From a virus, in IMG/VR virus record IMGVR_UViG_3300048554_000805, positions 1 through 45,196 of that record: a stretch of 45,196 bases of DNA; one strand, written 5' to 3'. Positions within the stretch are counted from its first letter, which is position 1, and every line of letters starts with the position of its first letter. The notes beneath the pieces were generated by a model. It did not search any database. It was not told where the DNA came from and was given only the letters and a program-made list of their open reading frames with translations. Below are positions 28,969-33,590 of this stretch, in pieces. Both the position numbers and the translations under genes were made by a program.

Positions 28969-29098
28969 TAATTTTTATGGGGGATTGATTGGATAAACCT
29001 CTATCCACAGAGAGAAAAAATCGGCTCATCTCTGTAAGAATCAAGTAAGTGATATGGGTAAAAAAGACGCTATACCCTAAACTCCCCCATAGAAATTA
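28969..29098 (+). ncRNA. Candidate structured RNA with 16-bp closing stem
   Basis: P1 pairs 28969-28984 with 29083-29098 over 16 bp, with one G-U wobble at 28975/29092. That wobble becomes an A-C mismatch on the other strand, favouring a plus-strand RNA. Inside, P2 TTGATT (28985-28990) pairs with AATCAA (29039-29044) and encloses two hairpins: GGATA/TATCC (28991-29006) and ACAGAGA/TCTCTGT (29007-29035). P3 GGGTA/TACCC (29056-29077) follows. All pairings nest. No known class recognised. It could be a 3' element of the zinc-protein mRNA or an independent RNA. Confidence 0.55.
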
Positions 29099-29105
29099 AA
29101 TTATT

Positions 29106-29122
29106 TTTAATAAGGCGTTAAA
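29106..29122. promoter_or_regulatory. Dispersed palindrome upstream of the 29131 promoter
   Basis: Reads TTTAATA-AGG-CGTTAAA, eight bases before the -35 element. Confidence 0.5.
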
Positions 29123-29130
29123 AAAAAGTG

Positions 29131-29160
29131 TTGACATTAAATCTCATGTTAACATATTAT
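29131..29160 (+). promoter_or_regulatory. Promoter with operator-like spacer
   Basis: -35 TTGACA (29131-29136), 18-bp spacer, -10 TATTAT (29155-29160). The spacer begins, directly after the -35 box, with TTAAATC-TCA-TGTTAAC, whose right half is a perfect dispersed-palindrome half. Start of transcription near 29167 gives a 46-nt leader for the gene at 29213. Confidence 0.7.
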
Positions 29161-29212
29161 AGGTTCACACGCTGAGTGAGTCAGCAAAAACAAACCCCAA
29201 CGAGGAAACAAA

Positions 29213-29389
29213 ATGAGAACGACAAAAGACATGAACACACAAGCAGACATTGCACTTCAGATCATGAATCACACAAAGAGCGGGCTTTCTTCAACAGAAG
29301 CTTGGGAGGCGATCTTTGGAGAAGGGAGTCAGGAGTTGATGAAATCTTGGGACATGAAAAAAGTTTGCAAGAAATTCAGAAGCCTCTGA
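29213..29389 (+). CDS. 58-residue protein under the 29131 promoter
   Basis: ATG 29213 has the ribosome site GAGGAA at 29203. The product reads MNTQADIALQIMNHTKSG then STEAWEAIFGEGSQELMKSWDMKK and ends with a basic FRSL. It is predicted as three helices, a plausible small DNA-binding or antirepressor fold, though no motif is certain. This frame is preferred to the overlapping 74-residue frame at 29176, whose composition is unlike protein. It is followed directly by a terminator, so the transcript is short and abundant-looking. Confidence 0.65.
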   Translation: MRTTKDMNTQADIALQIMNHTKSGLSSTEAWEAIFGEGSQELMKSWDMKKVCKKFRSL

Positions 29390-29399
29390 GGGGTGAATA

Positions 29400-29428
29400 A
29401 GAGGCATCAAGTTGGTGTCTCTTTTTAA
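29400..29428 (+). terminator. Rho-independent terminator
   Basis: AGAGGCATCA, loop AGT, TGGTGTCTCT, then TTTTTAATT. Ten-bp stem including two G-U pairs. It closes the 29213 transcription unit. Confidence 0.75.
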
Positions 29429-29429
29429 T

Positions 29430-29690
29430 TCCTTAGATACCCCAAGCCACTTCCCTCAGGGATTTACGGGGTGACAATTGAGACTCAGCACTGACCTGAA
29501 AAGGTAAGTAGAGAACGAAGACTTGAACGAGTGCTGTTTAGAAAGACTTCCTCACTGAGAAAATCAGGGGGTAGCGATAAAAAGAAGTGTCATGGATGAT
29601 ATTAGCTTTTTTGCATTGCGTAAGTCACAGCCGAATGGCTGTAGAGATCAACTCAATAAAGAGTTTGTCTCCTAAGCCATTTAACTTTTT
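29430..29690 (+). ncRNA. Candidate structured non-coding region
   Basis: A 313-bp gap between genes (29390-29702). Beyond the terminator it has ACCCC/GGGGT (29439-29472) enclosing TCCC/GGGA; CAGCACT (29486-29492) pairing with AGTGCTG (29530-29536) and enclosing ACCT-GAAA-AGGT, a GNRA tetraloop hairpin; ACAGCC-GAAT-GGCTGT (29627-29642); and AACTC/GAGTT inside GAGA/TCTC (29644-29671). A 27-residue frame from ATG 29592 overlaps the last two hairpins and is an alternative explanation. Class unknown. Confidence 0.4.
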
Positions 29691-29702
29691 GAGGTATTTA
29701 AA

Positions 29703-29849
29703 ATGATTGATCCAATTTCAGCAGCAATCAACAACAGAGATTATTACAAATTAGAGGAACTTTGGGCTGAAGCTTCAGAGGTAGATAAAGCGGTTATTGA
29801 TGTGGCAATGAATATGTTAGAGCAAGAGCTAGAAGAAAACGGGTGTTAA
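29703..29849 (+). CDS. 48-residue acidic helical protein
   Basis: ATG 29703 with ribosome site GAGG at 29691. The product (MIDPISAAINNRDYYKLEELW... DKAVIDVAMNMLEQELEENGC) is acidic and helical, resembling half of a small helical hairpin. It is followed by another small helical protein 21 bp downstream. Unknown function. Confidence 0.6.
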   Translation: MIDPISAAINNRDYYKLEELWAEASEVDKAVIDVAMNMLEQELEENGC

Positions 29850-30081: not shown

Positions 30082-30099
30082 CAACCCCTTCGGGGGTTG
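30082..30099 (+). terminator. UUCG-capped hairpin between small genes
   Basis: CAACCCC-TTCG-GGGGTTG, a perfect 7-bp stem with the very stable UUCG loop. No U-tract follows, so it may be an mRNA processing or stability element rather than a terminator. A second hairpin TGAATT/AATTCA (30103-30122) follows it in the leader of the next gene. Confidence 0.6.
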
Positions 30100-30164
30100 C
30101 TGATGAATTCCCTTTGCAATTCAGTGAGGGGGGTTCACAAGCAACCTATCAGAGGAATTTTACA

Positions 30165-31139
30165 ATGACAGCAAAAGCCCAAACCCAAAGCAAGCAAGTA
30201 GAAGCAACCACAACCAACAAGAGAGCAGCAGCAAAGAAACCTGCGGCCCCCAAGAAGCCCACAACTTCAGCGGTAAAGAAGGCTGTTTCCAAGGTTTCTG
30301 CAGGAGTAAAAGCCAAAGCTGCAGCCCCGAAAAAGCCAACCACAAAGAAGCCAATCACAAAAAAGCCAAGTACCCCAAAGGCAAAAGTTGAAGCCCCTGC
30401 AGCCCCTGCAGTTTCACCACAGCCTGAGAAGCTTGTTGTTGAGGCATGGAGTGTCACAGGGAAGCCAATTGTAAGGGTAGAAGCCCCTGAACAAAGCCAA
30501 AAGCAGGAAACCAAAGTTGAGACTGAGACAGATTTGCATGAGGCAGAGAAGGAAGCAAAGATTGCAGCAGTGGAAGAAATGCAAGCCCTTGCTTCTAATT
30601 GCACCAAGGTTGAAAAACTTTTAGAGTTTCTTTTGATCAGTAAGAAACTGCAGGTTGACCCCCCGCATGTCACGTTCTGCAATGATTTGACTAATCTGCT
30701 GAGTGATTGTCTTGATCAAGATGGGAAGCTGAAGATTTCAGTCAAGCCTATCAACCCAAGGGGTGGAAAGAAGACACAATCCAAGGTTAATGGTTCTTCA
30801 GCACTTAGAGCATTTTGGGCTGAGTTGATTGATCGACCTGAAGGAGCAACAAGAGAGGAACTGTTTGAAGGGGGCAAGGAAAACTTCCCTGACCTTTCGC
30901 CCAAAACAATGATGTCTCAGATGTCTCAGCTAAGACTTGGCTATGATTACGGTGTCTCAATTCATCCCGAATATTCAGGGAGAAAGGCATCAGAAATCAA
31001 CGGGGTTTATACTTGGCTTCCTGCTGAAGAGACAAAGTTGGAAGATTACAGAATAGCTAAGAAAGAAAAGACTGTTGGTGGAATTGAAATGATTGGCTCT
31101 GACGGCAGAGTTTGGGCAGGTGTGCAAAAGGTTGGCTAA
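30165..31139 (+). CDS. Histone H1-like Lys/Ala/Pro-rich DNA-binding protein
   Basis: A 324-residue protein. ATG 30165 with AGAGGAA upstream is preferred over an earlier in-frame start. Residues 1-110 are a disordered tail of AAKKPAAPKKP-like repeats, as in bacterial histone H1-like and HU-extended proteins. Residues about 135-200 are helical, and residues 220-300 form a winged-helix-like domain: ALRAFWAELIDRPEGATREEL, then SPKTMMSQMSQLRLGYDYGV, then GVYTWLP. It should bind DNA non-specifically through the tail. High expression is suggested by its hairpin-rich leader and strong terminator. Confidence 0.7.
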   Translation: MTAKAQTQSKQVEATTTNKRAAAKKPAAPKKPTTSAVKKAVSKVSAGVKAKAAAPKKPTTKKPITKKPSTPKAKVEAPAAPAVSPQPEKLVVEAWSVTGKPIVRVEAPEQSQKQETKVETETDLHEAEKEAKIAAVEEMQALASNCTKVEKLLEFLLISKKLQVDPPHVTFCNDLTNLLSDCLDQDGKLKISVKPINPRGGKKTQSKVNGSSALRAFWAELIDRPEGATREELFEGGKENFPDLSPKTMMSQMSQLRLGYDYGVSIHPEYSGRKASEINGVYTWLPAEETKLEDYRIAKKEKTVGGIEMIGSDGRVWAGVQKVG

Positions 31140-31146
31140 CACTTTT

Positions 31147-31171
31147 GGGGGGCTTTGCTCCCCTTTATTTT
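31147..31171 (+). terminator. Rho-independent terminator
   Basis: GGGGGGC-TTT-GCTCCCC (one G-U pair) followed by TTTATTTT. Eight bases after the H1-like gene. A sister hairpin with loop TCT occurs at 32528. Confidence 0.75.
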
Positions 31172-31318: not shown

Positions 31319-31432
31319 AGGGAGGGGCAAGGGCTAAGGCTCTGCAGACATCAGCTTCACACCAAGGGCTGATTGAGCCCCACAGCCTCAAGCAATGCAG
31401 AAAAAACGCATGCTTCTGTCGCTCCCCTCCCT
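31319..31432 (+). ncRNA. Candidate structured RNA, three-way junction
   Basis: P1 AGGGAGGGG (31319-31327) pairs with CCCCTCCCT (31424-31432). Inside, GGGCT/AGCCC (31331-31380) encloses ATCAGC/GCTGAT (31350-31373), and AAGCAATGC (31390-31398) pairs with GCATGCTT (31408-31415) leaving one bulged A. All helices nest. It fills the non-coding gap before the DUF932 gene. No known class recognised. A minus-strand open frame here (31278-31478) is best explained as a by-product. Confidence 0.5.
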
Positions 31433-31442
31433 CCTCATTTTG

Positions 31443-31486
31443 AAGAACTACTGAAGCACTCAATTCCGAGTGTTTCAATGAGTAAC
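31443..31486 (+). promoter_or_regulatory. Leader hairpin element, copy 1
   Basis: AGAACTACT, stem GAAGCACTC, loop AATTCC, stem GAGTGTTTC, then AATGAGTAAC. Twenty bases before ATG 31506. The flanks are identical to the copy at 32870 while both strands of the stem have changed together. AATGAGTAAC contains ATG AGT AAC, opening a five-codon frame that ends at the ribosome site. Confidence 0.65.
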
Positions 31487-31505
31487 TCTAATTGAGGAAT
31501 TGAAA

Positions 31506-32516
31506 ATGAGTCATGAATTAGCAAGCGCCAACGATATGATTTACACAGGCGCAAAGCCTTGGCATGGACTAGGGCAGGAGATGCCTGAGGGCTTCACTAC
31601 TGAAGATTTGAAGGCCAATCCAAACTTAAATTTTAAGGTGGAATTAAGACCTTCAGCTATGAAAGTCAATGGCAAATGGGAGCAAGTCCCTAATGCTAAT
31701 TTTGTTGTCAGAGCAGATAACAATACAGTCTTTGGGAAGGGGCTTTCTGACGGTTATGTGCCTGTTCAAAATGATGTGGCTTTTGACTGTTTTGATAAGT
31801 TTATCAAGGAGGGAATAGCAACCTATGAGACCGCAGGGGTTTTACATGGGGGCTCAAGAATTTGGGTTTTGTGCAAGATGAATCTTGACCCAATTGAGCC
31901 AATCAAAAATGACCCAATCATGCCTTACTTCCTTTTTTCAAGCGGTCATGATGGGGAACATGCCGTTAAGATTCTCCCCACTTCTGTCAGGGTAGTTTGT
32001 CAGAATACTTTGGGTTGGGCGGATACAGCAGGGCAAAACTATCATGTAAAAATCATACACAAGTCAGGAGTCCATGAGGCTATAGCAGACATTCAGAAAG
32101 TGACTGATGCAGCAGTGAAGGGGCTCAAGCTGACTGAGGAAATGTTGAGGGCTATGGCAGACAAGCCCTTTGACTACAAGAGCCTAGAAAATTATTTTCG
32201 CTATACCTTGAAGAAACCTTATCGTGACCCCAATGAGCTAAAGGCTGAAGATGAGGCTTACGAAGAGGCTTTGAAGTCAGGCTCTAGGGCGATTGAGCAA
32301 ATGTTTGAGGCTTATGAGTGGGAAGCCTTCAATCTTCCCCCTGAGAAGAGAGGAAGTGTTTTCCATGCCTATCAAGCGACAACCCACTACACAGCCCATC
32401 TCAGGGGAGGGGAAAATAAATCAGCTTCTCAGAGGTGTGCTGTTAATTGGTATGGGGAAGGCGCAAACATTAGAAACAGGGGGCTCAAGCAAGCTAGAAA
32501 GCTTATTGCAGCCTAA
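31506..32516 (+). CDS. DUF932 phage/plasmid-like protein
   Basis: A 336-residue protein of the DUF932 / phage-plasmid-like (TIGR03299) family. Motifs: SHELAS at the start, AKPWHGLGQ, VRADNNTVFGKGLSDGYVPVQN, HGGSRIWVLCKM, GHDGEHAVKILPTSVRVVCQNTLGWA, and the end SQRCAVNWYGEGANIRNRGLKQARKL. Family members occur in early regions of many phages and plasmids; the biochemical role is unknown. ATG 31506 with TTGAGG upstream is the start. It is translated behind a hairpin leader shared with the gene at 32930. Confidence 0.9.
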   Translation: MSHELASANDMIYTGAKPWHGLGQEMPEGFTTEDLKANPNLNFKVELRPSAMKVNGKWEQVPNANFVVRADNNTVFGKGLSDGYVPVQNDVAFDCFDKFIKEGIATYETAGVLHGGSRIWVLCKMNLDPIEPIKNDPIMPYFLFSSGHDGEHAVKILPTSVRVVCQNTLGWADTAGQNYHVKIIHKSGVHEAIADIQKVTDAAVKGLKLTEEMLRAMADKPFDYKSLENYFRYTLKKPYRDPNELKAEDEAYEEALKSGSRAIEQMFEAYEWEAFNLPPEKRGSVFHAYQATTHYTAHLRGGENKSASQRCAVNWYGEGANIRNRGLKQARKLIAA

Positions 32517-32527
32517 TTAATAACTCA

Positions 32528-32556
32528 GGGGGGCTCTGCTCCCCTAGAAGCTAGGG
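32528..32556 (+). promoter_or_regulatory. Mutually exclusive hairpins over a ribosome site
   Basis: Hairpin A is GGGGGGC-TCT-GCTCCCC (32528-32544). Hairpin B is CCCTAG-AAG-CTAGGG (32542-32556). They share bases 32542-32544, so only one can form. AGGG in the 3' arm of B is the ribosome site for ATG 32565, so B would hide it and A would expose it. Confidence 0.6.
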
Positions 32557-32564
32557 TTTATCTG

Positions 32565-32798
32565 ATGAAATTAAGAACTGCAATCAAAAAATCAACCCGT
32601 GTATTTGTTCAAGCCTCATGCAATGGTACACCTATTAAATTTCAGGTTTCTAAAAAAGAAGCTCTTCTTAAATTAAGCGGATTTCATAATTATTTAGATG
32701 AGGATTTAGATAAGGAAGAGAATGATTTTATTTGGTCTATTTCGGAAGGTTTATTCCCTTTTTGGTCTGAAAACGATCTGATTCTTTCGTTTACATAA
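32565..32798 (+). CDS. Small early protein, MKL-family paralogue 1
   Basis: A 77-residue protein beginning MKLRTAIKKS. It shares with genes at 35330 and 36802 the start MKLxxA, a central segment with small strand then KKEALLKL or KxxLxxFL, an acidic middle and an aromatic/strand end (FPFWSENDLILSF). The three look like diverged copies of one fold. Function unknown. Its ribosome site lies within a switch-like hairpin pair. Confidence 0.55.
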   Translation: MKLRTAIKKSTRVFVQASCNGTPIKFQVSKKEALLKLSGFHNYLDEDLDKEENDFIWSISEGLFPFWSENDLILSFT

Positions 32799-32803
32799 AA
32801 GCA

Positions 32804-32861
32804 GTAAGCAAAACTATTTACCGGTAAGCAAAACTATTTACCGGTAAGTAAAACTATTTAC
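32804..32861 (+). repeat. Three tandem 20-bp iterons
   Basis: GTAAGCAAAACTATTTAC at 32804, the same at 32824, and GTAAGTAAAACTATTTAC at 32844, each followed by CG or TG, so the period is exactly 20 bp. Each unit is itself an imperfect inverted repeat (CGGTAA...TTACCG around the middle copy). The block is non-coding and lies just before the second leader hairpin. Confidence 0.85.
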
Positions 32862-32869
32862 TGTTTTTG

Positions 32870-32913
32870 GAGAACTACTGAAAGGCTCAATGCAGAGCCT
32901 TTCAATGAGTAAC
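32870..32913 (+). promoter_or_regulatory. Leader hairpin element, copy 2
   Basis: AGAACTACT, stem GAAAGGCTC, loop AATGCA, stem GAGCCTTTC, then AATGAGTAAC. Perfect 9-bp stem. Seventeen bases before ATG 32930. See copy at 31443. Confidence 0.65.
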
Positions 32914-32929
32914 CCAAAACAGGAGTGTG

Positions 32930-33154
32930 ATGGAAGAAATAACGGTTGAGCAGTTAGAAATTATCTCCTCAGTGATGGAGTTAGATTCTAATGAACATTT
33001 AGTTTTGCCTCAGGCTGTTTTAGCCTTACAGAGGGCTGCAGATGTAGATCCTGACATTCTTTTTAAAAGGATTGTTTCATATACTACTTTGCAGACTTAT
33101 ATTAGGGCTTTAATTAAGGCGAGACTTCCATATTTTTGCAACCCTAATAATTAG
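32930..33154 (+). CDS. Small early protein (74 residues)
   Basis: Start ATG 32930 lies five bases after AGGAG; GTG 32927 is possible. A helical protein with EEITVEQLEIISSVMEL and DPDILFKRIVSYTTLQTYIRALIKARLP. No motif recognised. It precedes SSB by 7 bp, and its mRNA carries the iterons and leader hairpin, so its expression is probably specifically controlled. Confidence 0.6.
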   Translation: MEEITVEQLEIISSVMELDSNEHLVLPQAVLALQRAADVDPDILFKRIVSYTTLQTYIRALIKARLPYFCNPNN

Positions 33155-33161
33155 AGGGCTG

Positions 33162-33590
33162 ATGTTAAACAAGGTGATGGTAATAGGGCGTTTAGGTAAA
33201 AACCCTGAGATTAGATATACAAATGATGGGAAGGCTGTTTGCTCTTTTTCTGTAGCTACAACTGAATATTGGAGAGATAAGCAGGGGCAGAAACAGGAAA
33301 AAACGGAATGGGTTAATGTGGTTGCTTGGGAGAGACTAGCTGACCAAGCTCAGTCCTTTCTTTCAAAGGGTTCTATTCTCTATGTGGAGGGCAAGCTTTC
33401 AACTAAATCTTGGGAGCAGGAGGGGCAGAAGAAGTACAAGACAGAGGTTATAGCTTCACAGTTTAGATTCTTGGATTCTCGCCAATCTGAGCCACAAAAT
33501 AACCAAGTGAAAGAGGATCAACCTGCTTGGGAGAGTGGGGAAAATCGCAACCAAAACACCCCTTATATTGATGATGATACACCTTTTTAA
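33162..33590 (+). CDS. ssb: Single-stranded DNA-binding protein
   Basis: A 142-residue SSB. The OB-fold motifs are complete: MLNKVMVIGRLGKNPEIRYTNDG (residues 1-23, seen in parts), the SFSVAT strand, EWVNVVAWERLADQA, GSILYVEGKLSTKSWEQEG and EVIASQFRFLDS. The C-terminal third is a flexible acidic linker ending DDDTPF, the tip that recruits partner proteins in bacterial SSBs. It coats replication and recombination intermediates. Ribosome site AGAGG at 33152. Confidence 0.95.
   Translation: MLNKVMVIGRLGKNPEIRYTNDGKAVCSFSVATTEYWRDKQGQKQEKTEWVNVVAWERLADQAQSFLSKGSILYVEGKLSTKSWEQEGQKKYKTEVIASQFRFLDSRQSEPQNNQVKEDQPAWESGENRNQNTPYIDDDTPF

Follow-up and report, generated by a model that had tools for sequence, protein, structure and literature searches.

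A structured RNA element duplicated upstream of two phage genes

A 43-nt element stands directly before the start codons of two genes in a temperate phage genome, and comparison of four copies from two related phages indicates an RNA-type fold whose internal loops are invariant while its stems and hairpin loop vary with pairing kept. The role that we consider most probable, at slightly better than even odds (about 0.5), is that of a cis-acting structured RNA in two early-gene leaders, functioning as a translational operator. The window, meaning the whole 45,196-nt stretch of DNA analyzed here, is a 45-kb temperate tailed phage that encodes an integrase, a RecE-like nuclease, a replication initiation protein, SSB, a ParB-like protein, and terminase, portal, head and tail proteins.

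The core of copy 1 occupies positions 31444 to 31486 (AGAACTACTGAAGCACTCAATTCCGAGTGTTTCAATGAGTAAC, 43 nt) and that of copy 2 positions 32871 to 32913 (AGAACTACTGAAAGGCTCAATGCAGAGCCTTTCAATGAGTAAC, 43 nt), both on the + strand. The two copies with identical flanks reported in the preliminary description are thereby confirmed, the flanks AGAACTACT and AATGAGTAAC matching exactly between them. Compared as a 54-nt direct repeat, the copies are 81% identical. A degenerate pattern written for the element has two matches in the window, and none of 100 dinucleotide shuffles contains one. In copy 1, the segment AGA-ACU-AC is followed by the inner stem (residues 31452 to 31461 with 31468 to 31477) and by AUG-AGU-AAC, with ACU (31447 to 31449) pairing AGU (31481 to 31483). 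In copy 2, the inner stem joins residues 32879 to 32888 with 32895 to 32904, and ACU (32874 to 32876) pairs AGU (32908 to 32910). Both copies do lie just upstream of start codons, as first described, although the distance from core end to ATG is 19 nt (copy 1) and 16 nt (copy 2) rather than 17-20 bases.

The complete fold starts with an outer stem and a small internal loop beside an invariant G-C pair, continues with the ACU/AGU pairing and a further internal loop (AC/AUG), and ends in an inner stem of 10 bp (UGAANNNCUC/GAGNNUUUCA) capped by a hairpin loop; the loop strands around ACU/AGU read ACUAC and AUGAGUAA. The hairpin originally proposed is therefore structured but was drawn too short, since the outer stem and two internal loops also belong to it. 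Folding energies of the 44-nt cores are -14.7 and -17.0 kcal/mol, with a z score of about -4.1 in each case, and the longer leaders give folding z scores of -3.9 and -4.6. The outer stem of copy 1 has its 5' side at 31432 to 31443 and its 3' side at 31493 to 31498 (+ strand), with UCCUCA (31432 to 31437) pairing UGAGGA (31493 to 31498); in the related phage, this pairing is kept as UCCUUA/UGAGGA. In copy 2, residues 32861 to 32870 pair with 32914 to 32922 (+ strand).

The claim that the stems carry compensating changes within one genome was borne out. Three of the 10 inner-stem pairs differ between copies 1 and 2, two of them on both sides (C-G/G-C and A-U/G-C) and one on a single side (G-U/A-U); when 3 + 2 substitutions were placed at random on the two arms, every pair was kept in just 0.47% of cases. 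In an alignment of four sequences (two copies each from two related phages), 94.7% of 76 cells are paired, and sliding the register by 1-3 columns lowers pairing to 26-50%. Four pairs change on both sides across the four copies (2 in the inner stem, 2 in the outer stem), and RNAalifold recovers the same core. The covariation score was reached in 14 of 500 shuffles, a moderately unusual result of the kind expected from four related sequences; neither the number of double-change pairs nor the pair types of this alignment was unusual against shuffles. The hairpin loop varies across the four copies (AAUUCC, AAUGCA, AAUUCU and AAA). The internal loops may form a bulged-G (loop E) module (AGUA/GAA), which is put forward as a candidate idea.

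Conservation and distribution

Both copies, with the same genes downstream, are found in a second phage, IMGVR_UViG_2778261618 (48,397 nt; equivalent to NZFK01000029.1, whose title names a Rickettsiales MAG). Copy 1 is 96.5% identical to its orthologue over 57 nt, and copy 2 is 92.6% identical over 54 aligned nt. The neighboring genes are less similar between the two phages: the DUF932 gene reaches 76%, the gene encoding a 74-aa protein 61% and neighboring small genes 67-70%. This difference indicates that the element is under selection. Furthermore, orthologous copies are 93-96% alike, compared with 81% for the paralogous copies, so the duplication is ancestral and predates the split of the two phages, with the two sites kept apart since.

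According to the preliminary description, a lack of further copies would count against the element; two more were found in this one relative, and none elsewhere in the sequences searched. The exact loop pattern matched 28 stretches in IMG/VR and GTDB genomes, where the hairpin was present only in the relative's two records and the remaining matches were chance-like. Looser patterns, which weak copies could escape, gave the relative alone among the matches listed. Protein-led searches (DUF932, the 74-aa protein and SSB), followed by a covariance model run on SSB and DUF932 loci, yielded no more copies. Of the 190 relatives and 27 members of the same class examined for the relative's genome record, only the relative itself carried the element; it was not found in eight head-protein relatives, most of which are fragments, or by blastn against phages and plasmids. 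Within the limited scope of these searches of genomes, phages and plasmids, the element thus looks narrow in distribution.

None of the 4227 families of Rfam release 15 matched at gathering score, and nothing emerged at permissive thresholds, the best sub-threshold family being STnc450 (18.2 bits vs 37). The element is therefore undescribed in Rfam, while its general kind, the phage mRNA leader or operator hairpin, is known.

Downstream genes and their ribosome-binding sites

Copy 1 precedes the gene for a DUF932 protein (31506 to 32516, + strand; PF06067, phrog_1221). Copy 2 precedes the gene for an all-helical 74-aa protein of unassigned family (32930 to 33154, + strand), which is followed by ssb, encoding the single-stranded DNA-binding protein (33162 to 33590, + strand; PF00436, phrog_44). 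The AlphaFold model of the DUF932 protein is too poor for use (pLDDT 36), and nine distant DUF932 proteins, once aligned, proved too divergent to serve as a search query. The 74-aa protein is modeled as four helices (pLDDT 90), with no match among solved folds.

The two copies relate differently to the Shine-Dalgarno sequences. At copy 1, the 3' side of the outer stem holds the Shine-Dalgarno GAGG (31494 to 31497) of the DUF932 gene; the ensembles computed for both phages show this motif completely paired (unpaired probability 0.00-0.01). At copy 2, the outer stem adjoins the Shine-Dalgarno AGGAG (32921 to 32925) of the 74-aa gene and its last two bases are the start of this motif, without hiding it; the unpaired probability of this site, which lies outside the hairpin, is 0.14-0.32 in the window, where it pairs mainly with sequence downstream, and about 0.56 in the relative. 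The fold's 3' boundary thus falls on the Shine-Dalgarno or up to about 6 nt away. The element shares with phage translational operators of the T4 gp43, T4 gp32 and Mu Com type a conserved RNA structure that reaches or borders the ribosome-binding site.

A putative translational operator

The position directly before start codons suggests control of translation initiation, and invariant letters in the internal loops combined with a free hairpin loop are the expected look of an internal-loop site for a protein or small ligand. Since the Shine-Dalgarno is hidden at copy 1 alone, simple sequestration cannot be the shared mechanism, and occlusion of the 30S site by the hairpin, possibly in a bound form, is more likely. 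In the operator reading, one putative trans-acting factor, for which an early or replication protein of the phage working in feedback is the most likely candidate, would recognize both internal loops at both leaders and stabilize or open the hairpin, so that 30S entry is controlled. At the DUF932 gene, this would combine Shine-Dalgarno pairing with occlusion, whereas the locus of the 74-aa gene and ssb would rely on occlusion alone; both genome segments would thereby be regulated together. Feedback repression has the best precedent as the direction of control, and activation, as in Mu Com/mom, is possible. A more specific version is speculative and rather unlikely: that a phage-encoded RNA-binding regulator, for which SSB, the helical 74-aa protein and the DUF932 protein are possible candidates, reads the two-internal-loop module and ties DUF932 translation to the ssb operon, making a new RNA-recognition pair.

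Several characterized systems resemble this arrangement. In T4, replication genes gp43 and gp32 carry a structured element before the start codon that is bound by a phage protein (PMC3014915), and the element described here is likewise a candidate structured operator before the start codon of a phage early or replication-region gene. However, the gp32 operator is a pseudoknot and the gp43 operator a hairpin read by the polymerase, whereas here a single two-internal-loop element stands at two genes and its factor is putative. Com, a small protein of the temperate phage Mu, acts at a hairpin before mom (PMC6483171), and in both cases the hairpin is located at a translation start; unlike the present element, whose hairpin loop is variable, Com reads a hairpin-loop motif, and it activates. 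Conserved structured RNAs of phage or marine genomes include STAXI, manA and wcaG, of which STAXI often occurs near ssb (PMC2864571). STAXI is a repeated pseudoknot, in contrast to the element in this study, which matches no Rfam model.

Alternative explanations

The main rival of the operator explanation is RNase III processing; the architecture is similar to that of T7 early-region sites. In T7 early mRNAs, RNase III cuts irregular junction hairpins built from an internal loop and an upper stem of roughly 10 bp. A T7-like signal here would be cut by the host enzyme in the internal loop at gene junctions, separating mRNAs, setting the downstream 5' end and placing RNA ends within AAUGAGUAA; we regard this as a possible but less favored function. 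The element is indeed an irregular hairpin at a gene junction and, much like R0.3, R0.5, R1.1 and R1.3, has an internal loop next to an upper stem of about 10 bp, together with a lower stem where folded. As in T7, copies lie before start codons with several in one genome, more irregular hairpins occur at other junctions of the region, and by eye the loops resemble those of T7 (ACU.../...AUGA). R1.1, with its 4/5-nt internal loop, is cut by an alphaproteobacterial RNase III (PMC6121014). Across R0.3 to R1.3, though, the likeness is one of irregular junction hairpins with different loop letters and no model match. A covariance model was built from five T7 sites, with other T7 junction sites held out. 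The T7 sites used here were placed according to the general T7 map and were then folded. This model found held-out T7 junction sites at E values of 1e-8, 0.01 and 0.05 but gave the element background scores, with an E value of 1.8 (rank 4) for the window and of 0.36 and 4 for the relative, and in the reverse search the element model matched no T7 site. Moreover, RNase III has no obvious requirement for invariant loop letters, yet the loops are invariant here and, although at least five junctions carry hairpins, occur in just two of these. On the other side, the operator reading draws on four sequences from two related phages and a putative factor, and the long hairpins that occur at further junctions in this region would suit general processing equally.

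Function as a DNA element, whether an operator, a replication or recombination site, or a single-stranded-DNA hairpin, is improbable. The three tandem 20-bp repeats just upstream of copy 2 and the proximity of ssb would fit such a role, but copy 1 has no tandem repeats upstream, and the G-U pairs of the inner stems (copy 1 in both phages, copy 2 in the relative), the asymmetric invariant loops, which are not dyads, and the same orientation and start-codon distance at two genes argue for RNA rather than DNA. A small riboswitch, with internal loops that would serve as the binding site for a metabolite or ion and an outer stem that would gate the Shine-Dalgarno, accords with invariant internal loops among variable stems and with the paired Shine-Dalgarno of copy 1. 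Its probability is nevertheless low, as the core is very small, has no Rfam match and was seen in two related phages only, the downstream genes are not known as metabolic, and no expression platform is common to both copies. Very improbable is an attenuation leader peptide, whose translation from ATG AGT AAC would control the hairpin. The preliminary description had proposed this motif as a possible leader-peptide start, and ATGAGTAAC is invariant in the four copies; however, the four frames (MSNSN, MSNPKQECDGRNNG, MSNFN and MSNLKKGV, each followed by a stop) share only MSN and differ in length, and the best upstream Shine-Dalgarno is a 3-nt GAG buried in the stem, so that no conserved short frame with a usable ribosome-binding site was found. 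The proposed start is not supported; AUGAGUAAC is better accounted for as the 3' side of the internal loops. A Rho-independent terminator or attenuator was rejected: neither copy appeared in the terminator scan, and AATGAGTAAC, not a U-run, follows the stem.

Additional structured features of the region

Several other features were observed in this genome. A multibranched structure of about 118 nt (28973 to 29096) has 31 consensus pairs between the two phages, 5 of which are changed on both sides, and no Rfam match. It may represent a novel non-coding RNA or an element of riboswitch type, on either strand, and is arguably stronger than the hairpin finding. The block from 28975 to 29706 is 91-94% identical between the two phages, compared with about 72-82% over most of the genome, and contains a promoter-like site, a small gene and two hairpins. 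The promoter-like site (29131 to 29160, TTGACA-18-TATTAT) lies upstream of the region's junction hairpins, which include irregular ones at 29385 to 29438 and 29625 to 29690, kept in the relative. A hairpin of very high stability that contains a 2x2 internal loop (30086 to 30155), also kept in the relative, precedes the gene starting at 30165, and its basal stem holds the Shine-Dalgarno AGAGG. The product of this gene (30165 to 31139) carries an N-terminal tail of repeats rich in Lys, Ala and Pro (KKPTT, KKAV) as well as a conserved C-terminal domain, and it matches neither Pfam nor PHROG families. Another duplicated hairpin, GGGGGGCTYTGCTCCCC, directly follows the stop codons of two genes (31147 to 31163 and 32528 to 32544), and both copies are present in the relative.

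Just before copy 1, the non-coding stretch from 31320 to 31435 is closed by GGGAGGGG/CCCCTCCC and is 79% conserved with several indels; it is possibly a separate ncRNA. The tandem 20-bp repeats just before copy 2 (32804 to 32863, GTAAGCAAAACTATTTACCG) occur nowhere else in the window, with two good copies in the relative, and look like operator or iteron sites. The integrase end of the genome (21881 to 22925) shares 92% identity with the relative, far more than most of the genome does, possibly reflecting recent exchange or strong constraint.

Biological significance

The element is of interest mainly because its two copies spell out the recognition core and connect two operon segments. It illustrates clearly how covariation within a single genome can expose a regulatory RNA: the copies are identical at the letters presumably read by a factor and differ where only pairing counts, which precisely defines the 43-nt element. 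If it is an operator, the DUF932 gene and the ssb operon would form one post-transcriptional regulon, providing a handle for finding the regulator. Should the more specific link to the ssb operon be true, the DUF932 family, whose function is unassigned, would gain a regulatory connection to phage replication.
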